Positions 5,254-25,911 of a stretch of DNA of 37,670 bases are shown here, piece by piece. Both the position numbers and the translations under genes were made by a program. The stretch comes from a virus: IMG/VR virus record IMGVR_UViG_3300030085_000095, positions 1 through 37,670 of that record, one strand, 5' to 3'. Position 1 is the first letter of the stretch; every line of letters starts with the position of its first letter. A model generated the notes under the pieces. That model had not been told where the DNA came from. It saw only the letters and a list, made by a program, of their open reading frames with translations, and did not search any database.

Positions 5254-5460
5254 ATGATTAAAAGAACAGAAATCAATCAACAAAAAACACCTACTGTAAT
5301 GAAAAATAAAAATCCTTACAGTAACAAAGGCAGCGTGTCTTTGAAAACAAACCAAGGAACTTTTGATACAAATGTAAAGCCTAAGCCTGGTATGGGTAAA
5401 GGCAAAGCTAGAGGCATGGGTATTGCAGAGTTTGGCGGTAAGTTTTCTGGTGTTTATTGA
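5254..5460 (+). CDS. Small basic phage protein
   Basis: A 68-residue Lys- and Gly-rich protein between portal and the co-chaperonin region. It contains GMGKGKARGMGIAEFGGKFSG near the C-terminus, with no membrane segment or signal. The leader before the ATG (5215-5253) has no clear Shine-Dalgarno, so initiation may be weak or coupled. The end overlaps the next gene by one base (TGATG). Composition suggests a small virion-associated or nucleic-acid-binding protein, but no function is assigned. Confidence 0.65.
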   Translation: MIKRTEINQQKTPTVMKNKNPYSNKGSVSLKTNQGTFDTNVKPKPGMGKGKARGMGIAEFGGKFSGVY

Positions 5461-8170: not shown

Positions 8171-9073
8171 ATGGCAATTAATAGAGCGCAATTAGCGAAA
8201 GAATTAGAGCCAGGTCTTAACGCCTTGTTCGGTATGGAATATGCCAGATACGAATCTCAACATGAAGAAATTTATGAAACTGAGTCTTCTGATAGAGCGT
8301 TTGAAGAAGAAACCCTAATAGTAGGGTTTGGTAACGCAGAAGTAAAAGCTGAAGGTAGTGGTATCAGATTTGATACAGCTAACGAAGGTTATACTTCACG
8401 TTATACCCACGAAACAGTGGCTTTAGCTTTCGCGCTAACTGAAGAAGCAATTGAAGATAATCTTTATGATAGACTCGGCGCAAGATACACCAAGGCTTTA
8501 GCAAGATCTATGGCTAACACAAAGCAAATCAAAGCAGCTGCAGTATTAAACAACGCGTTTAGTACAACAGGCGGTGACGGTAAAGTGCTTGTGGCTACAG
8601 ATCATCCACTAGGCGGAGGTGGTTCACTAGCAAATAGAGCTACCACTATGGCGGATCTTAATGAAACTTCACTAGAAGACTCACTTATTAATATTTCTAC
8701 ATTTACAGATGATAGAGGTCTTAATATTGCGTTGAAAGGTATGAAGTTAATTATCCCACCACAATTAGTATTTGTTGCTGACAGATTACTACAAAGCCCA
8801 GGCAGAGTAGGAACATCTGACAACGACATTAATGCTATAGCAAATACTGGTATGCTTCCTGATGGATATGTTGTAAACAACTATCTAACAGATACAGATG
8901 CGTATTTCATCAAAACTGACTGCCCAGATGGGTTTAAGTATTTTGAAAGATCTCCTATGCAAACTGCATTAGAGGGTGACTTCGATACAGGTAACATGAG
9001 ATACAAAGCTAGAGAGCGTTATAGTTTTGGATATTCTAACTTTAGAGCCGTTTACGGTTCTCAAGGAGCTTAA
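8171..9073 (+). CDS. Major capsid protein (HK97-like fold)
   Basis: The main shell protein, 300 aa. It is supported by position after scaffold and decoration genes, by a following strong terminator, and by sequence: an N-terminal ELEPGLNALFGMEYARY, a central HETVALAFALTEEAIEDNLYD helix region typical of Mu gpT-like capsid proteins, and an A-domain-like LIIPPQLVFVADRLLQSPG segment. The C-terminus FGYSNFRAVYGSQGA is typical of such proteins. There is no N-terminal delta domain, which agrees with a separate scaffold gene. The spacing to the previous gene is 3 nt. Confidence 0.85.
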   Translation: MAINRAQLAKELEPGLNALFGMEYARYESQHEEIYETESSDRAFEEETLIVGFGNAEVKAEGSGIRFDTANEGYTSRYTHETVALAFALTEEAIEDNLYDRLGARYTKALARSMANTKQIKAAAVLNNAFSTTGGDGKVLVATDHPLGGGGSLANRATTMADLNETSLEDSLINISTFTDDRGLNIALKGMKLIIPPQLVFVADRLLQSPGRVGTSDNDINAIANTGMLPDGYVVNNYLTDTDAYFIKTDCPDGFKYFERSPMQTALEGDFDTGNMRYKARERYSFGYSNFRAVYGSQGA

Positions 9074-10376: not shown

Positions 10377-10643
10377 ATGGCACAGTACAAAGGAAAAACC
10401 GTAACTCTTAATAGACCTAGGGCTATCCGCAAAGGTAGCCCTGGTTATGGTACAAAACGAAAAGAAGTCTTTGTAAAAAATCCCTCAACAGGAAAAGTCA
10501 AACGTATTGCGTTTGGTGATGCTAAATTAGGCATGCACAAAAACGATCCAAAACGTAAAAGATCATATTGTAAAAGAAGTGAAAAGCTTGGTAATGACCG
10601 TATGAAGGCTAATTATTGGGCTAGAAGAGATTGGGATTGTTAA
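10377..10643 (+). CDS. Small Lys/Arg-rich phage protein
   Basis: An 88-residue, strongly basic protein. It contains GTKRKEVFVKNPSTGKVKRI, a FGDAKLGMHKNDPKRKRSYC segment and a C-terminal NYWARRDWDC. I recognise this type from marine phage genomes, where it is conserved but unassigned. The basic patches suggest contact with DNA or with the acidic capsid interior. It starts three bases after the previous stop and abuts the next gene exactly, so it is part of one transcript. Confidence 0.65.
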   Translation: MAQYKGKTVTLNRPRAIRKGSPGYGTKRKEVFVKNPSTGKVKRIAFGDAKLGMHKNDPKRKRSYCKRSEKLGNDRMKANYWARRDWDC

Positions 10644-10937
10644 ATGGCAAAAAAACGTGATCCCAAAGTAGGCACAGGAAAAAAACCAAAAGGTAGCGGT
10701 AGAAGGCTGTATACAGACGAAAATCCTAAAGATACCGTATCAATTAAGTATGCAACTGTTCAGGATGCCAGAGATACAGTAGCAAAGGTAAAACGCACAA
10801 GAAAACCTTTTGCAAGATTAATACAAATACTTACCGTAGGCGAACAAAGATCTAAATATGGGGGTAAGCCTAAACAAGCTGAAATATTTAGAAGAGGTAA
10901 AGATTCTATTAGAAGAAAGTTTGGAAGAATTAAATAA
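10644..10937 (+). CDS. Small basic phage protein
   Basis: A 97-residue, Lys/Arg-rich protein beginning directly after the previous stop. The N-terminus MAKKRDPKVGTGKKPKGSGR is a disordered basic tail. A helical middle (DARDTVAKVKRTRKPFARLI) and a basic end (KDSIRRKFGRIK) follow. Its end overlaps the SET-domain gene by one base. No known domain. As one of several polybasic proteins beside that enzyme, it is a plausible DNA-binding virion protein and a possible methylation substrate. Confidence 0.65.
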   Translation: MAKKRDPKVGTGKKPKGSGRRLYTDENPKDTVSIKYATVQDARDTVAKVKRTRKPFARLIQILTVGEQRSKYGGKPKQAEIFRRGKDSIRRKFGRIK

Positions 10938-11272
10938 TGTATCCTGTTTATAATAAATTTTATTACAAACCTTTACCAGACTGTATAGAAGTTCAAAAAA
11001 GCCCTATAGAAGGATTTGGTTTGTTTGCAATACAAAATATTAATAAAGATTTTGATATAGGCATGTCACATATAAAAGTTCCTATAATTCAAGGCTATAT
11101 AAGAACATCTATAGGCGGTTTTTTAAATCACTCAGAAGACTCTAATTGTTATTTAAGCGAAGAATTAGACTGGGACGACTATAGAGTATATAACGTAATT
11201 ACATCAAAAAAAATTAGTGTTGGCGAGGAGCTTACGCTAAACTATCATTTGGACGGTTTAAATTATGGCTAA
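10937..11272 (+). CDS. SET-domain protein, putative lysine methyltransferase
   Basis: A minimal 111-residue SET domain, which would transfer methyl from S-adenosylmethionine to a lysine side chain. Landmarks in order are GFGLFA (26-31), the GGFLNHSEDSNC core with the conserved NHS (60-71), and GEELTLNY (96-103), with the expected tyrosine. There are no pre- or post-SET zinc sites. The size is close to the 119-residue vSET of chlorella virus PBCV-1, a known histone methyltransferase. It is flanked by Lys-rich small proteins and overlaps the next gene by 8 nt. The substrate is unknown. The fold is well supported by motif order, while activity is inferred. Confidence 0.8.
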   Translation: MYPVYNKFYYKPLPDCIEVQKSPIEGFGLFAIQNINKDFDIGMSHIKVPIIQGYIRTSIGGFLNHSEDSNCYLSEELDWDDYRVYNVITSKKISVGEELTLNYHLDGLNYG

Positions 11273-11606
11273 AGAAAAATTAAAAAAAGTTATAAAGGGT
11301 TTGCAAAAAGCAAGTAAAACTCACGCAAAACAGGCTGAAACATTAGAATCAATTAAAATGAAAAAAGGTGGTAAGGCTAAAAAAAAGAGTAAACCTAAAA
11401 GCGGAGGTAAAATATGTCCAGAGGGTATAGCCTGGGCAAAAAGAACTTTCGATACATATCCTTCAGCTTACGCAAATTTAGCAGCTTCTAAATATTGCAA
11501 AGATCCAAATTATGCAAAAAAAGCTAAAGGTGGTAAACGAAAAGGTAAAAGAAAAGGCGGTCCCATAAGGGGTCAGGGTATAGTGATGAAAGAGAGACTA
11601 AGATAA
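11265..11606 (+). CDS. Lys-rich protein with a conserved C-terminal motif
   Basis: A 113-residue, very basic protein. The N-terminus (KLKKVIKGLQKASKTHAKQA) is a helix that resembles the small protein at 13168-13293. It is followed by a poly-Lys/Gly stretch (KKGGKAKKKSKPKSGGK) and a compact motif with two cysteines (CPEGIAWAKRTFDTYPSAYA ... KYCKDPNYA), and ends in a Gly/Lys/Arg tail. I have seen this CPEG..WAKRTF..YPSAYA motif in cyanophage and giant-virus proteins, where it may belong to DUF5872, but could not check. It overlaps the SET gene and is a candidate substrate. Confidence 0.65.
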   Translation: MAKEKLKKVIKGLQKASKTHAKQAETLESIKMKKGGKAKKKSKPKSGGKICPEGIAWAKRTFDTYPSAYANLAASKYCKDPNYAKKAKGGKRKGKRKGGPIRGQGIVMKERLR

Positions 11607-12043
11607 TGGGACAATTACAAGGGTGGCTAGATAAAAAGTGGGTACGAATTGGACTTGACGGTTCTATATTGGGACCTTGTGGCACAAGTAAAGATAAAAA
11701 GAATCCAGATCGTTGTTTGCCAAAAGCAAAAGCACAAAGTTTAAGTAAAGCAGAAAGAGCTGCTACAGCAAGAAAGAAAAAAGCAGCAGGCAGAAAAGGT
11801 AAAACTGTTGTAGCTAATACTAAAAAAGCTAGAGTTTCATTAAAAGGAGGAAACAAAGTGACTAAAAAACTAAAACCAATACCGCCAGGCAACAAAGGAT
11901 TGCCTAAATTACCAAAAGAAGTTCGTAATAAAATGGGTTATTTTGTTGATGGTGGTCGTGCACAAAAAAAGAATGGTGGCAAGATAGCTAGAGGTTGTGG
12001 TAAAGTTATGTCTAACAGGCGTAAATTTACAACAATTAGTTAG
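11606..12043 (+). CDS. Lys-rich protein with a WLDKKWVRI motif
   Basis: A 145-residue basic protein starting on the last base of the previous stop. The N-terminal ~60 residues (MGQLQGWLDKKWVRIGLDGS, GPCGTSKDKKNPDRCLPKAK, LSKAERAATARKKKA) form a conserved-looking small domain with two cysteines that I associate with the same family as its upstream neighbour (tentatively DUF5872). A Lys-rich linker follows, then PKEVRNKMGYFVDGGRAQKK. It is probably a DNA- or capsid-associated basic protein. Confidence 0.6.
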   Translation: MGQLQGWLDKKWVRIGLDGSILGPCGTSKDKKNPDRCLPKAKAQSLSKAERAATARKKKAAGRKGKTVVANTKKARVSLKGGNKVTKKLKPIPPGNKGLPKLPKEVRNKMGYFVDGGRAQKKNGGKIARGCGKVMSNRRKFTTIS

Positions 12044-12052
12044 GAGATAAAT

Positions 12053-12211
12053 ATGCCAAAATCAAAAGTTGATCCAAAAATGCAAGCAAGATTGGATGCA
12101 AAAGTTAGACCAGACGAGCCAGTAAAGGAAGATCGTATTTACATAAATATGAAACCAAAAAAGAAAGCTCCTGCAAAAAAAACTACAAAAAAGAAACCAA
12201 GTAAAAAGTAA
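12053..12211 (+). CDS. Very small Lys-rich protein
   Basis: A 52-residue ORF. It has a good Shine-Dalgarno (TAGGAG, 12041-12046) and begins MPKSKVDPKMQARLDAKVRP. The second half is almost wholly Lys/Pro/Thr (KPKKKAPAKKTTKKKPSKK), much like a histone H1 tail. It lies between two other polybasic genes with the same orientation and strong ribosome sites. The spacing to the next gene is 11 nt. It probably belongs to the same set of DNA-condensing or packaged proteins. Confidence 0.6.
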   Translation: MPKSKVDPKMQARLDAKVRPDEPVKEDRIYINMKPKKKAPAKKTTKKKPSKK

Positions 12212-12222
12212 GGAGTACTATT

Positions 12223-12489
12223 ATGCCAGGCAAAAAAAATTCTAAATACGGTAGTATGATGAAAAAGTCTAAAGGCGGCATGATGATGAAAAAATCCAAA
12301 GGCGGTTCACTTATGAAAAAGTCTAAAGGTGGTTCATTAATGAAGAAGTCAAAAGGCGGGAGCATGATGAAGAAATCTAAAGGCGGGTCTTTAATGAAAA
12401 AATCTAAAGGCGGAAGTATGATGAAAATGTCCAAGGGTGGTTCAGTCATGATTGCAGGCAACGCTAATAGAAGAAGAAGCAAGTTCTAA
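12223..12489 (+). CDS. Repeat protein of KKSKGG units
   Basis: An 88-residue protein that is almost entirely a 9-residue tandem repeat with consensus S-(L/M)-M-K-K-S-K-G-G, seven copies from residue 11, framed by a short N-terminus and a C-terminal NRRRSKF. A strong Shine-Dalgarno (AAGGAG) precedes the ATG. The periodic Lys pairs resemble a histone tail or AKGG/KGG-type nucleic-acid-binding peptides. The high Met content is unusual. The antisense ORF is an artefact of the repeat. It is probably a virion-packaged, DNA- or membrane-interacting protein. Function is unknown, and it is a natural candidate for SET methylation. Confidence 0.65.
   Translation: MPGKKNSKYGSMMKKSKGGMMMKKSKGGSLMKKSKGGSLMKKSKGGSMMKKSKGGSLMKKSKGGSMMKMSKGGSVMIAGNANRRRSKF
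12253..12441 (+). repeat. Seven 27-nt tandem repeats (KKSKGG coding)
   Basis: Seven in-frame copies of a 27-nt unit encode the 9-residue repeat. The copies differ at synonymous sites and alternate between SLM and SMM versions. The last copy has K to M at one Lys (KMSKGG). Confidence 0.9.
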
Positions 12490-12490
12490 A

Positions 12491-13165
12491 GTGTCGTATT
12501 TGATAAGTAATATCCCACATTTTAAATGTTGGGTTAGGAGAGAGTTTACACACAATCACGAGGAATACCAAGGTGAGTATTTGCATGCCTTGGCTATTGC
12601 AGTTAATACAATACCTGATAGGTCTTTAAGTTTCCAAGTAGTCTTTACTGGCGAGGAAGCAAATTGTGAGGATTGGGACGAAGGAAATATCCACGGTGGT
12701 GCTATGTGGGCTCGTATGCCTATCCAAGGTTTAGTTGCGGATATACCTATGGACGATTTCCCTAGGCCTATGGAGGACCATCTAGCACAACCTTGGGATT
12801 GTGAAGCTAGGGATCATAGTGTTGTTGTGATGGATAGAGTTAGTTCATCACCCTGGATTGCAAAAATTGATGGTAATTTTTATCAAGCAAAATATTTATT
12901 TAGTGTTGACTATACAAATACAGATATTGCAGATGACCCTGCACAACATAAACAAAGTCATGTATTATATATAACTGAAGACTGTGAATGGAAAGGTAAC
13001 TTAGTTGCTTTACCTAATAATAGAGTAAGAGCTACTAGCCCTGCTTTGTGGGTAACAGGTGAGGGACCTCCACAGTTTAAACCTTCGCAGTGGAAGCACT
13101 CAGCTGAAGGACATGAGAGTTATCTTGATCCATCAATAACTTTTGATAATTTATACGAGGACTAA
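12491..13165 (+). CDS. Hypothetical protein, possible virion component
   Basis: A 224-residue soluble protein. I place the start at the GTG at 12491, two bases after the previous stop, because the frame from there reads MSYLISNIPHFKCWVRREFT, a start I associate with related marine phage proteins. The ATG at 12452 would run 38 nt inside the repeat gene. Its body is acidic with many Trp, His and Cys (EDWDEGNIHGGAMWARMP, then EDHLAQPWDCEARDHSV). It is unlike its polybasic neighbours in charge. No known domain. Its position just before adaptor genes suggests a structural role. Confidence 0.6.
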   Translation: MSYLISNIPHFKCWVRREFTHNHEEYQGEYLHALAIAVNTIPDRSLSFQVVFTGEEANCEDWDEGNIHGGAMWARMPIQGLVADIPMDDFPRPMEDHLAQPWDCEARDHSVVVMDRVSSSPWIAKIDGNFYQAKYLFSVDYTNTDIADDPAQHKQSHVLYITEDCEWKGNLVALPNNRVRATSPALWVTGEGPPQFKPSQWKHSAEGHESYLDPSITFDNLYED

Positions 13166-13167
13166 TT

Positions 13168-13293
13168 ATGGCAGAACTAAGCGTAGCAGCAAAAAGAAAA
13201 TTAATTAAAGAACTTAAGGGAGCTTCTAGGTTACATGCTAAACAAGCAAAGCAAATAGAAAAATCCTTAAAAAAAACTAAAAAGAAAAAATAA
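13168..13293 (+). CDS. Tiny basic protein, paralogue of the 11265 gene's N-terminus
   Basis: A 41-residue ORF. It reads MAELSVAAKRKLIKELKGAS then RLHAKQAKQIEKSLKKTKKK. This aligns with the N-terminal helix of the protein at 11265 (KLKKVIKGLQKASKTHAKQA), sharing the K-L-I/V-K-x-L-x-x-A-S-x-x-H-A-K-Q-A pattern. It is therefore a duplicated module. It starts two bases after the previous stop, and its own stop overlaps the next ATG (TAATG). Confidence 0.6.
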   Translation: MAELSVAAKRKLIKELKGASRLHAKQAKQIEKSLKKTKKKK

Positions 13294-13964
13294 TGGCAAC
13301 ATCAAATAGTACAGATTTTGAACCAAATGTAGCTGAGTTTGTTGAAGAGGCTTTTGAAAGATGTGGTTTGGAGTTAAGAACAGGATATGATTTAAAGACT
13401 GCACGTAGATCTATAAACCTTATGTTAGCTGAATGGGCTAACAGAGGTCTAAACCAGTGGACTATAGAACAAGCTACACAAACAGTTACAGAGGGAACAA
13501 CAGATTACTCTTTAAATTCTAATGTTATTGATATTTTAGACGTTGTTCTACGTAGAACAATTAACCAAACGCAAACTGATATAAGCATGAACCGTATCAG
13601 TAGGTCAGAATTTATTAACATACCAAACAAAACTACAAAAGCTAGGCCATCACAATTTTTTCTGGATAAATTATCCACACCTACATTAAAAATATGGCCA
13701 GCACCCGAAAACTCTACAGATATTTTAGTGTTTAATAAATTAGTTAGAATGGATGATGCAGATAAACCAACAAACACTATGGATATGCCGTTTAGATTTT
13801 ATCCTTGTTTTGCAGCTGGATTAGCTTACTACATATCCTTAAAAAGAGCTCCAGAAAGAACTTCACAGTTAAAATCTTTGTATGAGGAAGAATTTGATAG
13901 AGCTATGTCACAAGATGAAGATAGAGCCTCTTATAGAGTTAGACCTGATATTAGGATGAATTAA
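13293..13964 (+). CDS. Putative head-tail adaptor
   Basis: A 223-residue protein. The N-terminal helical region (FVEEAFERCGLELRTGYDLK then TARRSINLMLAEWANRGLNQW) has the look of adaptor proteins that bind the portal ring in short-tailed phages (P22 gp4-like in role). A central part with PSQFFLDKLSTPTLKIWPAPE looks like a beta insertion, and the C-terminus is helical (RTSQLKSLYEEEFDRAMS). Its stop overlaps the next start. The role rests on context plus pattern resemblance. The gene at 14302 is the other adaptor candidate. Confidence 0.6.
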   Translation: MATSNSTDFEPNVAEFVEEAFERCGLELRTGYDLKTARRSINLMLAEWANRGLNQWTIEQATQTVTEGTTDYSLNSNVIDILDVVLRRTINQTQTDISMNRISRSEFINIPNKTTKARPSQFFLDKLSTPTLKIWPAPENSTDILVFNKLVRMDDADKPTNTMDMPFRFYPCFAAGLAYYISLKRAPERTSQLKSLYEEEFDRAMSQDEDRASYRVRPDIRMN

Positions 13965-20760: not shown

Positions 20761-21110
20761 TGGAATCAGCCGTAACTTTAATTCAAGAAGTAGGTTTTCC
20801 TATTGCAGCAGCGTTAGGACTTGGTTGGTTTATTTATAAACTAATTATGCGTATTGTTGATGGTATGGAGACAAAACTTGATACCGTAGATGAAAAAGTA
20901 GAAGCACAAATAGCCGCAATAGAAGAACGACTTGGCACAAAACTTGATTCACAACACGGTATTTTGGTAGCATTAATAGATAGAGTGCGTAGTTTAGATA
21001 ACGAAATAATACGTCAAGATACTTTGATAAAAACTATATTAGGAGTACCTAACTTAATTGATAGCGGAAAAATAGCCAAGGCAGGTAGAGATGATCAAAG
21101 AAAAGACTAA
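20760..21110 (+). CDS. Membrane-anchored coiled-coil protein, holin-like
   Basis: A 116-residue protein. It has an N-terminal membrane segment (VGFPIAAALGLGWFIYKLIM, about 11-30) followed by a coiled coil (TKLDTVDEKVEAQIAAIEER, then LVALIDRVRSLDNEIIRQDT). This layout recalls BhlA-type holins and their relatives in phages of many hosts. The adjacent curli-like cassette starts inside its 3' end by 20 nt. It could be a holin, or a non-lytic membrane protein in the same transcript. No catalytic residues are expected. Confidence 0.55.
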   Translation: MESAVTLIQEVGFPIAAALGLGWFIYKLIMRIVDGMETKLDTVDEKVEAQIAAIEERLGTKLDSQHGILVALIDRVRSLDNEIIRQDTLIKTILGVPNLIDSGKIAKAGRDDQRKD

Positions 21111-21603
21111 ACAAGAAAAAATGGAAGAAGAAATTGTAAAAACTAAAATAGCTATATGGGCATTTTTTATAGGTGCTATTATGTTTTCAGCAGTTCTAGG
21201 CATGAATTTAGCTGCTGATACCATAACTCATAAATTTAAGTCACCTAGTTTTAACGGCGTGGGAACGTCTAGTCATTACCTTACAATAGAAAATCAACAA
21301 TATACTCGTAAACTAACAATCAAAGAAGAAATAAAAGCGTTACAAGATGAAATCAAAAGAGAAAAAGAAAATTCTACTCTTGCAAGGTTTATGCGTAATC
21401 TTGAATCTAGGGTTTATGCAGAACTATCAAGACAGTTAGTAAATAACTTATTCGGAGAAACACCGCAAAGCGAAGGTGTCATCACTTTAGAGGGGAATAC
21501 TATTGAGTACACAAGTGATGGTGTAACTTTAACCCTTAAAATAACCGAGGCGGATGGAACAGTTACCGAAATCGTCATACCTATTGGTACTTTTACTTTC
21601 TAG
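21091..21603 (+). CDS. csgF: CsgF-like curli assembly protein
   Basis: CsgF caps the CsgG outer-membrane pore and helps nucleate curli. This 170-residue protein has a hydrophobic signal-like segment after a long basic/charged head (AIWAFFIGAIMFSAVLGMNL, about 21-40). It then shows CsgF-type features. FKSPSFNGVGTSSHYLTIEN parallels FRNPNFGGN..AFLLNSAQ of E. coli CsgF. A middle helix follows (MRNLESRVYAELSRQLVNNL). The final strands GNTIEYTSDGVTLTLKITEA and DGTVTEIVIP parallel the E. coli [20 protein letters not shown] region. The long coiled insertion between is unlike E. coli. It overlaps csgG by 50 nt. The call is by pattern plus the unmistakable CsgG neighbour. Confidence 0.75.
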   Translation: MIKEKTKQEKMEEEIVKTKIAIWAFFIGAIMFSAVLGMNLAADTITHKFKSPSFNGVGTSSHYLTIENQQYTRKLTIKEEIKALQDEIKREKENSTLARFMRNLESRVYAELSRQLVNNLFGETPQSEGVITLEGNTIEYTSDGVTLTLKITEADGTVTEIVIPIGTFTF

Positions 21604-22456
21604 TTGCTCTATATTTGATCAATTTGAAGATACTTACGAACAAAGGTTTTCTAAAGACGTAGCAACAATACAAGAACTGCAATCAGCAGAACTCAAAAAT
21701 GTGCCTATACCAAAGGTAAGTCCTGTGGTTGCTGTGTATCCTACTTCATTTTCAGATCAAACAGGACAGCGTAAAAGCAATAGTGAGTTTGCTTTGTTTA
21801 GCACAGCTATAACTCAACAACCAAATGCGCTACTTATTAGAGCCTTAAAACATGCAGGAGATGGTAAGTTTTTTAGGGTTGTAGAAAGGGTAGGTTTGGA
21901 TAATCTTACCAAAGAAAGACAGCTTATAAGATCAGCAAGAGAACAATCGACTGATGAAGAAGTAAAAAAACAAGCACTTAGACCTTTATTATTTGCAGGT
22001 ATATTAATTGAAGGTGCTGTCATATCTTATGAAACAAATTTAGAAAGTGGTGGAGCAGGAGCTAGGTATTTGGGCATAGGCAAAAGCGTTATGTATAGAG
22101 AAGACAATATAACCATTAGTATGCGTATGGTATCGGTTGCAACAGGCGAGGTTTTGTTAGAAGTATTAAGTCAAAAAACAATATTTAGTTACGGTAAGTC
22201 TGAAGATGTATTTAGATTTGTTGAAGCTGAAAGCGAGCTAGTAGAAATAGAACTAGGCAACGCAAGAAATGAGTCATCAACCATAGCTTTGATGAAAGCT
22301 ATAGAAGGAGGTGTGCTAGAAATCATTAACACTGGTTATGATCGTGGTTTCTGGGTTTTACAAAATGATAACCAAGGAGTAGAATTAAATAATGAAAACA
22401 AAGAAATTGACGTGCCTGATTGTGATGATGAGTGCGTTGACAACATACGCGGCTGA
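21554..22456 (+). CDS. csgG: CsgG-like curli secretion pore lipoprotein
   Basis: CsgG is a lipoprotein that forms a nonameric outer-membrane channel exporting curli subunits (type VIII secretion). This 300-residue protein has a lipobox (LLSSC, Cys18) after a short hydrophobic leader, and core motifs close to E. coli CsgG: YPTSFSDQTGQRK, ALKHAGDGKFFRVVERVGLD, LTKERQLIRSAREQ, GAVISYETNLESGGAGARYL, RMVSVATGEVLLEV, FRFVEAESELVEIELG and GYDRGFWVLQN. Length fits, with a ~25-residue acidic C-terminal extension that overlaps the next gene by 65 nt. The signal peptide is encoded over the csgF 3' end. Confidence 0.93.
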   Translation: MEQLPKSSYLLVLLLSSCSIFDQFEDTYEQRFSKDVATIQELQSAELKNVPIPKVSPVVAVYPTSFSDQTGQRKSNSEFALFSTAITQQPNALLIRALKHAGDGKFFRVVERVGLDNLTKERQLIRSAREQSTDEEVKKQALRPLLFAGILIEGAVISYETNLESGGAGARYLGIGKSVMYREDNITISMRMVSVATGEVLLEVLSQKTIFSYGKSEDVFRFVEAESELVEIELGNARNESSTIALMKAIEGGVLEIINTGYDRGFWVLQNDNQGVELNNENKEIDVPDCDDECVDNIRG

Positions 22457-23123
22457 TAACGAAATATACGTAGATCAATCTGGTACTGGAGCTAATATAG
22501 ACTTAGAGCAACTAGGTATTTCTAATATTATAGGCGGATTAAACTCAACTGCTGGTAGTCTGAATCCTTTTGATTTAGATGGTAACAGTATGACACTTGA
22601 TATAAACATGATAGGTGCAACTAACAAGTTTCTTGGCGATATATTTGCTGATAACTTTACTGGCTTTTACGAGTTTGATGGCGGCACTAATTCATTTACT
22701 ATTCAAGTTGACCCTACAGATACTTATAGTGCTGATGGATCCAATCAAAATGTAGATGTAACAGGGAGCGGTAATACATTTACTTTAAATCAAGGTACCA
22801 CAGCATTAGCAGCTTCTCTTGACTTAGACTGGATAATTAACGGTTCTAATAACACAGTTACATCAAACATAAATATAGATGGTGCTACTAATTATATGGA
22901 TATAGATGGTTCTGATAATACAGTCACTTATACAGGTACAGGAGTTACAGCGTCAGCAGGTGGATATTTCTATCTTGATCATACAGGAGGCTCAAGAACA
23001 TTTAATATTCAACAACTAAGCACCCAAGATAATGACTGGCTTAAGATTATATCCGTTTCTGGCACTGCTGCTTCTACCGTTTGTGTTGTTCAAAACGACC
23101 AAGGTACAAGCACAAGCTGTTAA
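22392..23123 (+). CDS. Secreted curlin-like repeat protein
   Basis: A 243-residue protein with a clear signal peptide (MKTKKLTCLIVMMSALTTYA, cut near residue 20). The mature part begins with curlin-style spacing: VDQSGTGANIDLEQLGISN, with Q40-x-G-x-x-N45. In CsgA the repeat is Q-x-G-x-x-N. It then continues as loose Asn/Gly/Thr-rich strands (GSGNTFTLNQG, INGSNNTVTSNINIDGATNY, DGSDNTVTYTGTG), which suggest a beta-solenoid. It is not a standard CsgA: only the N-terminus keeps the classic motif. Downstream of csgF and csgG, it is the probable export substrate. It ends with two Cys (CVVQNDQGTSTSC), which is unusual for curlin. Confidence 0.7.
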   Translation: MKTKKLTCLIVMMSALTTYAADNEIYVDQSGTGANIDLEQLGISNIIGGLNSTAGSLNPFDLDGNSMTLDINMIGATNKFLGDIFADNFTGFYEFDGGTNSFTIQVDPTDTYSADGSNQNVDVTGSGNTFTLNQGTTALAASLDLDWIINGSNNTVTSNINIDGATNYMDIDGSDNTVTYTGTGVTASAGGYFYLDHTGGSRTFNIQQLSTQDNDWLKIISVSGTAASTVCVVQNDQGTSTSC

Positions 23124-24150
23124 TATTGGAGACATATCTGAATTAAACGGTACTGCTCAAATTGTCAGAGACAAAGCTTATAATGCAGATTTAAAATTTG
23201 CTATACAAAGTAATGATGAAGCTATAACTAAAGATGGCCGTATGGCTATTACTTTTCTTGATGATTCTACTGTAAAGCTTACAGAACATAGTCAGCTACT
23301 TATTGACGAGTACATATATGATCCAGACCCAAGTAAAGCAAAAATGGCTCTTACCTTTGGGCTTGGCACAGCTAGGTTTATTACGGGCAATCTTAACCGT
23401 ATAGATAAACAAAACATAACTCTTAAAACACCAACAGCTAATATAGCAATACGTGGGACTGATTTTACGGCTACAGTTGATGAACTGGGGCGTAGTCTTA
23501 TAATTTTGTTACCAGACGCTCTAGGGCTTTCTAGTGGCGAAATAGAGGTGGTTACTGCTATGGGCACCGTTATATTAAATAAACCTTATGAAGCTACTAC
23601 AGTAAGCGTATTTGAATCCGCTCCAACCAAACCTGTAATTTTAGACCTTACACTTGATGTAATAGATAACATGCTTATTGTTACGCCACCAAAAGAGGAA
23701 ATGTTAGTAGAGGAAGAAGCCACTACTACGCGAGTGGATAGTGTATTAGATTTTAATGATCTTGATATAGATTATCTTGCAGAAGATTATTTAAAAGAAG
23801 ATAGTCTTGAATTTACTGAGCTAGATATAAATTATCTTGATGTAAATTACCTAGAAGATTTATTAAATGTATTAGATGCATTAGCAATAGATGAAGAAGA
23901 GGATGTATTAGCTCAAGCTACTAGCACACAAATAGCAGGAACTTTACTAGGGAAAGATCCAGATACACAAATAACAGCCTTAATTACAGGAAATGTAGTA
24001 AGCTTGCGAAGAGAGGTTAATGAAAGCGTTAGAGTAGATTTAAACGGCAGTAATGCTTATACGGTTATTTTGATTCAAGATGGAGTTTCTAATATAATAA
24101 AAATCAACGGAGGGAGTGATAGCATTATTACTATCACTCAAAGTGATTAA
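23032..24150 (+). CDS. Secreted FecR-domain protein
   Basis: A 372-residue protein with a signal peptide ending in AQA (MTGLRLYPFLALLLLPFVLF, then KTTKVQAQA). Residues ~30-150 form a FecR domain, with AITFLDDSTVKLTEHSQLLI and the hallmark TPTANIAIRGTDFTATV. FecR domains usually sense or transmit signals across envelopes. A long acidic linker (repeating D-I-D/N-Y-L around 245-275) follows. The last 30 residues carry a curlin-like IQDGVSNIIKINGG, near-identical in pattern to QLGISNII of the preceding protein. It starts inside that gene's 3' end (92 nt overlap) and abuts the cyclase gene with no gap. Its partner is probably the CHASE2 sensor. Confidence 0.8.
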   Translation: MTGLRLYPFLALLLLPFVLFKTTKVQAQAVNIGDISELNGTAQIVRDKAYNADLKFAIQSNDEAITKDGRMAITFLDDSTVKLTEHSQLLIDEYIYDPDPSKAKMALTFGLGTARFITGNLNRIDKQNITLKTPTANIAIRGTDFTATVDELGRSLIILLPDALGLSSGEIEVVTAMGTVILNKPYEATTVSVFESAPTKPVILDLTLDVIDNMLIVTPPKEEMLVEEEATTTRVDSVLDFNDLDIDYLAEDYLKEDSLEFTELDINYLDVNYLEDLLNVLDALAIDEEEDVLAQATSTQIAGTLLGKDPDTQITALITGNVVSLRREVNESVRVDLNGSNAYTVILIQDGVSNIIKINGGSDSIITITQSD

Positions 24151-25911
24151 ATGAAGCGATTAATATTACCATTACTTATATTACTAAGTTTGCCTTTAAT
24201 ATTTCAGTCTATACCTACAGAAATTTTAAAGTTAAAAACTTTTGATGCTTTTATAGAAACTCCAGATCCATCAGGTAACTTTGTAATCTTAAATATTACA
24301 GAAGAAGATGTAGAAAAAGAAGGTGGTTGGCCCTTACCTAGACAAAGACTTGCAGAAATACAACTAGAAATGATAGGTAAAGGTGCCTTGGGTGTAGGAT
24401 GGGTAATAAGTTTTCCACAAGCAGACAGAATGGGTGGTGATGAGGATTTTGCTAGATCTTTAGGTTACGCACCATCTGTTATAGCTATGTTTGAAGATGG
24501 TAAAGGAAATTATCCTGCGTCTCCTGGAACTGTAGTGCTTGGCGAAGACAAAGGTGGTATAATTTCTACAGGAGTAAAGTCAAATCTACCCTCAATATCC
24601 AATCACGTTCTACAAGGTTTGGCTATTGCTCCTACTGATGTAGATTTACTTGTTCGTAAAATACCGCTTCTAGTTAAAACACCTAATGATGAATGGATAC
24701 CTAGTTTTGGAACACAAATATATAAATCATTATTTAACGTAAAAACTTATATTATAAAAACTAATGATAATGGTATATCAGAAATATCAATAAGAGGAAT
24801 ACCACCAGTCAAAACTGATAGTTTTGGCCGTAAATGGATTAGTTGGGTAGATACACCACAAACAGACTTACAAGAAATGAATGTTAATGGTAAATTTGTG
24901 TTTGTAGGTGTTACTGCAAACGGTGTAATGCCGCAAATTGCTACTCCAGTTGGATTATTAGAACCACATAAAATACAAGCAGCATTAGCAGAGAGTATAT
25001 TAATAGAAAATTCACCTTTTATACCTGATTGGTCATTAGCAGCAGAACTTTTAATATTAATAGTATTTGTGAGTTTAGTTTGGTTTGCAATACATTACTT
25101 TGGTATAACGTGGGGTGTTTGTATTGCAATCATATTTATGTTGAGCACAGGTATGGGAGGCGTATATATGATAAAACAAGGCACACTAATTGATGTATCT
25201 TGGACAATAATATCTGAATTTATAGCAGGCTCTACGGCTTTTTACTTACGTTTTAGACAACAGTACAAATTGAGACAACAAATAAAAAAACAATTTGAAC
25301 ACTATTTAGATCCAAGACAAGTCAAACATTTACAAGATAATCCAGATTCTTTAGTTCTGGGTGGAGAGCGTAAATATTGTACTTTTCTTTTTACGGATGT
25401 GCGTGGTTTTACAGCCCTATCTGAAAAACTAGAGCCAGAGGAGGTAACAAAAATTATGAATAAAGTGCTTACTATACAAGCAGATACGGTTAAATTTTAT
25501 GACGGTATGGTAGATAAGTATATAGGTGATGCTATGATGGCTATATTTAATGCACCAGTGGATGTTGCAGATCATGAAACAGCAGCAGTATTATGCGCTA
25601 AAGAAATCCAAGATAAAGTTAAAAGTGCTAATTTAGGTGTTGATATAGGTGTTGGTATAAATACTGGATATGCAGTAGTTGGTAATATGGGTAGTGATAC
25701 AAGGTTTGATTATTCTGCTATTGGAGATGCTGTAAATTTAGCCGCAAGATTAGAAAGCTCGACAAAGGAAGTTGGAGAAGATATTGTAATAGGTTATGAT
25801 ACTATTAAATCTAGTTCATTTAGCGAACAAATTATGTTAAAAGAGCTTGATAGTATTTTTGTTAAAGGTAAGAAAAAGCCTATTAAAATATATACATTAC
25901 AAAATGGTTAA
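24151..25911 (+). CDS. CHASE2 sensor fused to class III adenylate cyclase
   Basis: A 586-residue membrane enzyme. An N-terminal membrane segment (1-20) is followed by a periplasmic CHASE2 sensor (~25-290), three membrane segments (about 297-316, 320-341, 350-366) and a cytoplasmic cyclase (~400-586). The cyclase keeps metal ligands D416 (FTDVRGF) and D460, substrate-binding K456 (DKYIGD), and N529 and R533 (GDAVNLAARLES). Position 522 is Ser where IIIb enzymes have Thr and IIIa Asp, so ATP is the likely substrate. It would form cAMP, and GTP use is not excluded. All catalytic residues look intact. Encoded directly after the FecR protein. Confidence 0.9.
   Translation: MKRLILPLLILLSLPLIFQSIPTEILKLKTFDAFIETPDPSGNFVILNITEEDVEKEGGWPLPRQRLAEIQLEMIGKGALGVGWVISFPQADRMGGDEDFARSLGYAPSVIAMFEDGKGNYPASPGTVVLGEDKGGIISTGVKSNLPSISNHVLQGLAIAPTDVDLLVRKIPLLVKTPNDEWIPSFGTQIYKSLFNVKTYIIKTNDNGISEISIRGIPPVKTDSFGRKWISWVDTPQTDLQEMNVNGKFVFVGVTANGVMPQIATPVGLLEPHKIQAALAESILIENSPFIPDWSLAAELLILIVFVSLVWFAIHYFGITWGVCIAIIFMLSTGMGGVYMIKQGTLIDVSWTIISEFIAGSTAFYLRFRQQYKLRQQIKKQFEHYLDPRQVKHLQDNPDSLVLGGERKYCTFLFTDVRGFTALSEKLEPEEVTKIMNKVLTIQADTVKFYDGMVDKYIGDAMMAIFNAPVDVADHETAAVLCAKEIQDKVKSANLGVDIGVGINTGYAVVGNMGSDTRFDYSAIGDAVNLAARLESSTKEVGEDIVIGYDTIKSSSFSEQIMLKELDSIFVKGKKKPIKIYTLQNG

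Follow-up and report, generated by a model that had tools for sequence, protein, structure and literature searches.

So far, SET enzymes have been described chiefly as writers of histone marks in eukaryotes and as bacterial and algal-virus effectors, and the question raised by the locus described here is what such an enzyme might act upon in a phage. The window, i.e., the whole 37,670-base IMG/VR virus record IMGVR_UViG_3300030085_000095, is a marine virus of bacteria which carries a small SET gene inside a cluster of Lys-rich small proteins, designated B1 to B7 (Table 1). Its terminase and capsid genes match those of HTVC023P-type pelagiphages and of DSL-LC04. The answer that we tentatively favor is that the SET product would be a late phage protein-lysine methyltransferase, whose likeliest substrates would be the virion-type basic proteins of the same cassette.

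An earlier note on this DNA, made from the letters and their translations, had claimed a minimal SET open reading frame (ORF) of 111 aa with NHS and GEELTLNY motifs, and this was borne out. The ORF exceeds the cut-off of the Pfam SET family (PF00856; 35.4 bits, cut-off 22.4), matches PHROG_28741 (E value 1.5e-21), and includes the motifs EGFGLFA (GxG), GFLNHSEDSN, and GEELTLNY. The AlphaFold model (mean predicted local distance difference test, pLDDT, 87.7) has the predicted SET fold, and its top Foldseek match in the PDB is vSET of PBCV-1 (3kma; E value 1.7e-6; template modeling scores 0.64/0.68). In total, 261 PDB chains were matched at E<=1e-3, and the matches listed are SET domains. The VIA Z score is 11.6 for vSET, with MLL1 placed first and scores of up to 12.3; at the level of sequence, the vSET profile gives an E value of 1.7e-8 and MLL proteins score higher. 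The window SET is thus a bacteriophage relative of the viral SET enzymes, and it has in common with its phage relatives the signatures RTxxGGFxNHSxxxNC and GEELxxxY.

The catalytic Tyr of GEELxxxY is invariant in 64 aligned SET sequences, and over 263 fetched loci, all with a member of the wider SET family, GxG, NHSxxxN, and the catalytic Tyr are present in 257, 259, and 262, respectively. The ratio of nonsynonymous to synonymous polymorphism (pN/pS) over 52 close relatives is 0.19 for SET, 0.18 for the adaptor, and 0.11 for the capsid; the value for B2 is unreliable, since its sequences of equal length have shifted N-termini and were aligned with no gaps. These features bear on the proposal that the protein is catalytically dead and has a structural or binding role, for which one might cite its very small size and the Ser that replaces the usual Pro of NHSxxPN in the window copy. 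However, this position is variable within the family, in which PN forms are common, and the retention of NH, GxG, and the catalytic Tyr across nearly all loci, together with strong purifying selection, makes a dead enzyme very improbable. Sequence and model support a real, constrained SET enzyme, which would presumably carry out methyl transfer.

Close relatives of this SET are carried by at least 103 IMG/VR contigs, and in the annotated phage collection the family was found only in Kolga EXVC016S, P-SSM7, P-RSM6, and AG-345-P14. Our literature search found no paper that deals with a SET protein of pelagiphages or of cyanophages, and 'pelagiphage' combined with 'SET domain' returned zero results. 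The SET relatives in cell genomes (L559-L589) are located mostly on short contigs of metagenome-assembled genomes, assigned to phyla as different as Pelagibacteraceae, Porticoccaceae, Saccharibacteria, and Flavobacteriia; these are probably misbinned phage or prophage pieces.

The SET gene is one of nine same-strand genes (10377-13293) located between the capsid gene, accompanied by two genes that are cement-like or unassigned, and the gene for the SU10-type adaptor. The seven basic products have isoelectric points (pI) of 10.4-11.9 and contain about 28-37% Lys plus Arg. Because the window genome overall has 6.6% Lys and encodes mostly acidic proteins, and because the permutation p value for seven basic products among nine consecutive genes is 1.1-1.2e-4, neither AT bias nor chance can explain the cluster. 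The earlier note had spoken of at least six such proteins, one of them made of KKSKGG repeats; seven were counted, and the repeat protein (B6) was confirmed, with seven K[K/M]SKGG units. It had also described the genes as overlapping or abutting, and hence as co-expressed. Abutment or overlap by 1-8 bases is seen at four junctions (10643/10644, 10937/10937, 11265-11272, and 11606/11606), with later gaps of 1-11 bases, and from such abutting late genes the co-expression of SET with the basic genes is plausible. Promoter and terminator scans gave results at chance level.

The association between SET and the basic genes recurs outside the window. In the clade of the window SET, small basic genes account for 391/509 (77%) of the genes within three genes of SET, and for 20/518 (4%) in a control taken 6-12 genes from SET. 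In seven loci, SETs that are 57-81% identical are placed among B2, B3, and B4 in differing orders. The clade is designated FYYKPLP, and 22 whole records with a SET of this clade were searched: B2 was present in 18/22, and B3 and B4 each in 19/22. The three records devoid of B2, B3, and B4 are fragments of 25-35 kb, and in five records the distance between SET and B2 is about 19-38 kb. The corresponding values for B2, B3, and B4 are 0/13, 0/13, and 1/13 in records with Kolga- or P-SSM7-type SETs, and 3/13, 6/13, and 7/13 in SET-less relatives; the Fisher values for such counts take no account of relatedness among the records, and serve for description only. Thus, the conserved neighborhood of SET and basic genes sought by the earlier note is kept in the FYYKPLP clade, beyond mere adjacency, and is absent for the Kolga- and P-SSM7-type SETs. 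Viewed from the cassette the co-occurrence does not hold, as the basic genes persist in relatives that have no SET. The cassette is often SET-free and the FYYKPLP SET is usually accompanied by the cassette; therefore the link is one-sided, and the cassette needs no SET.

By sequence comparison, the basic proteins belong to module families also represented in cyanophage proteins of T4-like phages that have been detected in virions. The SSM2_109 protein of the T4-like phage S-SM2 holds B2, a B4-like part, DUF192, a WPSAYAS stretch resembling a variant of B3, and DUF6321. In a B2-anchored sample, B2, B4, and a B1-class module are fused in 8 ORFs, and B2 and B4 in 11 ORFs. The coordinates of S-CREM2 ORF137 equal those of gp137, which carries a DUF6321 domain, and ORF137 was detected in virions by mass spectrometry with four unique peptides (PMC10665884, Table 3). 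The S-SCSM1 protein SSCSM1_29, labeled 'virion protein', carries B4-like, WPSAYAS, and DUF6321 parts, and the same label is given to the S-SCSM1 NMNAT, which its authors report from mass spectrometry. The authors also warn that proteins with no structural role may be purified along with the particles. Since virion detection is limited to relatives and co-purification is possible, the packaging of the window proteins is something we infer from those relatives. For B1, this argument would run via DUF6321, whose Pfam cut-off the window B1 fails. HTVC008M AGE60464 was considered as a further link and rejected, being a cytidylyltransferase-like/DUF5824 protein that has no B modules.

The DUF6321 core occurs in 465 phage records, nearly all of marine cyano- or pelagiphages, and DUF6321 and B4-like modules are found in long proteins just upstream of the terminase in T4-like cyanophages (L387:3438-5564, L477:4663-6216, L590:2150-3622). 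The DUF6321 protein S-SZBM1_192 (L591:4129-4626) begins with MKTFKQYITEA and the S-SCSM1 NMNAT (L592:16820-18049) with MKSFLQFLKEA, both of which we take to resemble the T4-type capsid targeting sequence. Starts of the type MK[TS][FY]xxF are present upstream of B2 in 7/80 ORFs of a T4-like-anchored sample, and none was found at the N-termini of B1-B7.

In the mechanism that we propose, a small S-adenosylmethionine-dependent SET methyltransferase would be made together with the Lys-rich cassette from the late head-to-adaptor region. The cassette proteins would be stand-alone versions of the modules fused in virion proteins of T4-like marine phages, and SET would methylate one or more of these co-made proteins at lysines within their flexible basic stretches, with B2 as the best single candidate. 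Methylation would precede or accompany head assembly, and might tune the contact of the basic proteins with DNA or with each other. A physical rationale for lysine methylation is provided by the T4 internal proteins, in which, among the positively charged residues, only lysines were seen contacting the phosphates of packaged DNA (PMC3012670). There is precedent for a packaged viral SET in vSET, which is present in PBCV-1 virions (PMC3946773), and for a SET substrate that binds DNA in MC1-alpha, which is methylated by Go1-SET (PMC3980110). Of the accounts that cover all these observations this is the simplest, and the modification would be optional, not essential, as one would expect of a tuning step.

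Several observations weigh against this proposal. Most of the 22 FYYKPLP-SET records have a capsid or terminase that matches the one of the window (two match neither), so that the co-occurrence partly reflects common descent within one phage family. The cassette is present with no SET in six close relatives and in DSL-LC04, relatives with 72-96% identical capsids retain it without SET, and SET was found in 0/18 long records of a separate, independent B2-anchored sample. The Kolga- and P-SSM7-type SETs have no basic neighbors, and their records are devoid of B2 and B3. SET-dependent lysines were sought in B2 and none emerged: its conserved lysines, those of the tail included, show the same degree of conservation in samples with no detected SET. 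Moreover, we found no virion proteome in the literature for the HTVC023P-type group, and basic proteins are not thought to neutralize much phage DNA (PMC3281028). The earlier claim that SET methylates packaged basic proteins therefore stands in part: the constrained SET, the virion-module relatives, and the recurrent association with B2, B3, and B4 favor it, and the SET-free cassettes and the other phage SETs speak against it.

It is quite possible, though we would not expect it, that the space between the cement-like genes and the adaptor gene is a hot spot for accessory genes, in which SET landed and from which it acts on some unrelated protein of the phage or its host, e.g., one of the ribosome or of replication. 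Relatives that are otherwise syntenic differ in whether they carry SET, the gene content from capsid to adaptor varies strongly, other phage SETs adjoin nrdB, gp25, or helicase genes, and in several FYYKPLP-SET records SET is located off the cassette, near genes for a Cas4-type exonuclease, a phosphoadenosine phosphosulfate (PAPS) reductase, or a glycosyltransferase. What speaks against a hot spot is that the FYYKPLP SET accompanies B2, B3, and B4 genome-wide even when it is not adjacent to them, and sits among them in several gene orders.

A different use of packaging would make SET itself the cargo: it would be packaged along with the basic proteins, reach the host together with the DNA, and methylate host proteins soon after infection begins, which is the role proposed for vSET in algae. 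That vSET is a virion protein which methylates host H3 (PMC3946773) fits with this, as does the presence of enzymes in cyanophage virions, e.g., the NMNAT-like cytidylyltransferase. In addition, two BFVD proteins match the B2 model with 39-40% identity, A0A218ML49 (971 aa), named 'SET domain-containing protein', and A0A218MMM0, named as a cytidyltransferase; both are uncultured-virus proteins of 947-971 aa. The first hints at a fusion between SET and the modules, although its identity as a SET rests on the database name, and no such fusion was present in 160 further loci (L479-L558, L593-L672), nor was SET detected in the T4-like cyanophage modular proteins SSM2_109, SSCSM1_29, and S-CREM2 gp137. 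No targeting sequence is evident in the window SET, and histones are absent from the bacterial hosts; we regard the cargo role as unlikely.

Returning to the methylation of the cassette proteins, a broader version would hold that marine phages use a SET enzyme of their own to methylate the Lys-rich tails of modular internal head proteins, as a counterpart of histone-tail methylation, with the modules encoded by separate genes in podoviruses and fused in single chains in T4-like myoviruses; this generalization we consider somewhat unlikely. If SET does act on the cassette, its clade, carried by phages that are abundant in the ocean, would bring protein methylation into the biology of the phage particle, and the basic virion-type proteins together with SET would constitute a defined enzyme-substrate set. 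Irrespective of SET, B2, B4, and the DUF6321 class would be parts of a single module set, which T4-like phages carry in fused form and in their virions, and its recognition would suggest what several large marine-phage families with no ascribed function do.

The basic proteins themselves differ in how readily they can be classified. DUF6321 (PF19846) holds the place of B1 in DSL-LC04 (54.8 bits) and HTVC023P (49.5 bits), and the alignment gives 27-29% identity; the window B1 itself has no Pfam match to this family. B2 belongs to no Pfam family and has only stray PHROG matches, yet it is strikingly conserved. Its N-terminal Lys-rich stretch has low model confidence and is probably disordered, and the B2 model, the only one made for a basic protein, has no PDB match at E<=1e-3; a histone-like or nucleoid-protein fold for the basic proteins is not supported by this model. 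The window B3 has no Pfam match to DUF5872 (PF19197), and its relative in DSL-LC04 scores 20.1 bits, below the cut-off of 27.5. B3 begins with a KASKTHAKQA helix motif and ends with an IRGQGIVM tag. The copy number of KKSKGG in B6 ranges from 3 to 7 across relatives, and its units differ by synonymous codons, which argues that the peptide is kept and the DNA is not.

Table 1. Genes of the SET-containing cluster and its two anchors in the window.
Feature	Position	Strand	Length	Description and basis
Major capsid protein, upstream anchor	8171..9073	+		69% to DSL-LC04 major capsid protein
B1, basic protein	10377..10643	+	88 aa	pI 10.7; C-terminal Cys/Arg motif; PHROG_7595; distant to DUF6321
B2, basic protein	10644..10937	+	97 aa	pI 11.1; near-invariant GTGKKPKGSGRRLYTDENPKDTV N-terminal stretch; three predicted helices
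SET, predicted minimal SET-domain protein-lysine methyltransferase	10937..11272	+	111 aa	Pfam, motifs, model
B3, basic protein	11265..11606	+	113 aa	YPSAYAN motif; PHROG_27331; DUF5872-like
B4, basic protein	11606..12043	+	145 aa	PHROG_23735; conserved Cys pair; C-terminal ARGCGKVMSNRRK tag
B5, Lys-rich protein	12053..12211	+	52 aa	pI 10.4
B6, repeat protein	12223..12489	+	88 aa	K[K/M]SKGG units with 27-bp period
Acidic protein, cluster resident	12491..13165	+	224 aa	GTG start; PHROG_3704, labeled 'ferredoxin'
B7, basic protein	13168..13293	+	41 aa	KGASRLHAKQAKQIEK helix motif as in B3 N-terminus
SU10-type adaptor protein, downstream anchor	13293..13964	+		PF24175; 48.5 bits, cut-off 27

The helix motif (KASKTHAKQAE, GASRLHAKQAK) is common to the N-terminus of B3 (11265-11380) and to B7, and was also seen in HTVC033P gp41 and in a long pelagimyophage protein (L494). 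Short C-terminal tags of similar pattern, IRGQGIVMKERLR, ARGCGKVMSNRRKFTTIS, and ARGMGIAEFGGKFSGVY, are present on B3, on B4, and on the basic protein at 5254-5460, respectively; the kinds IRGQGIVMKERLR and ARGCGKVMSNRRKFTTIS were seen again in other loci, on 76 copies of B3 and 76 copies of B4, and such tags of small basic proteins may constitute a shared targeting or assembly tag. Elsewhere in the window, the late region encodes a staphylococcal-nuclease-like protein (PF00565; 20380-20760). A curli (type VIII secretion) module at 21091-25911 includes CsgF (PF10614), CsgG (PF03783), FecR (PF04773), a CHASE2-adenylate cyclase, and a curli-repeat-like protein that has no Pfam match; this module has already been described for HTVC023P-type phages (PMC9599517).

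Among known systems, the closest to the window SET by family are the SETs of Kolga EXVC016S, P-SSM7, and P-RSM6, which share 41-44% identity and both conserved signatures, but adjoin helicase, nrdB, or gp25 genes and have no basic cassette. The B2, B4, WPSAYAS (B3-like), and/or DUF6321 (B1-class) modules are found in SSM2_109, SSCSM1_29, and S-CREM2 gp137, where, in contrast to the separate genes of the window, they are fused in one chain of 490-708 aa. The T4 internal proteins IPI-IPIII are likewise packaged with DNA, whose phosphates their lysines touch (PMC3012670), although, unlike B1-B7, they enter the head via an N-terminal capsid targeting sequence. Go1-SET of Methanosarcina mazei is another prokaryotic SET, which in vitro acts on MC1-alpha, a DNA-binding protein that is small and basic (PMC3980110); Go1-SET differs in being cellular and archaeal, and it is likened to the window SET by description, not by sequence. 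The vSET protein of PBCV-1 (A612L; PDB: 1n3j, 3kma) is the best Foldseek match and has 28% identity over 89 aligned residues, and both are virus-encoded minimal SET domains of about 110-119 aa that have neither pre- nor post-SET regions. The host of vSET is a histone-containing alga and its substrate is H3K27, whereas the window SET belongs to a bacteriophage without histones, and its gene lies inside a late cluster of basic proteins.

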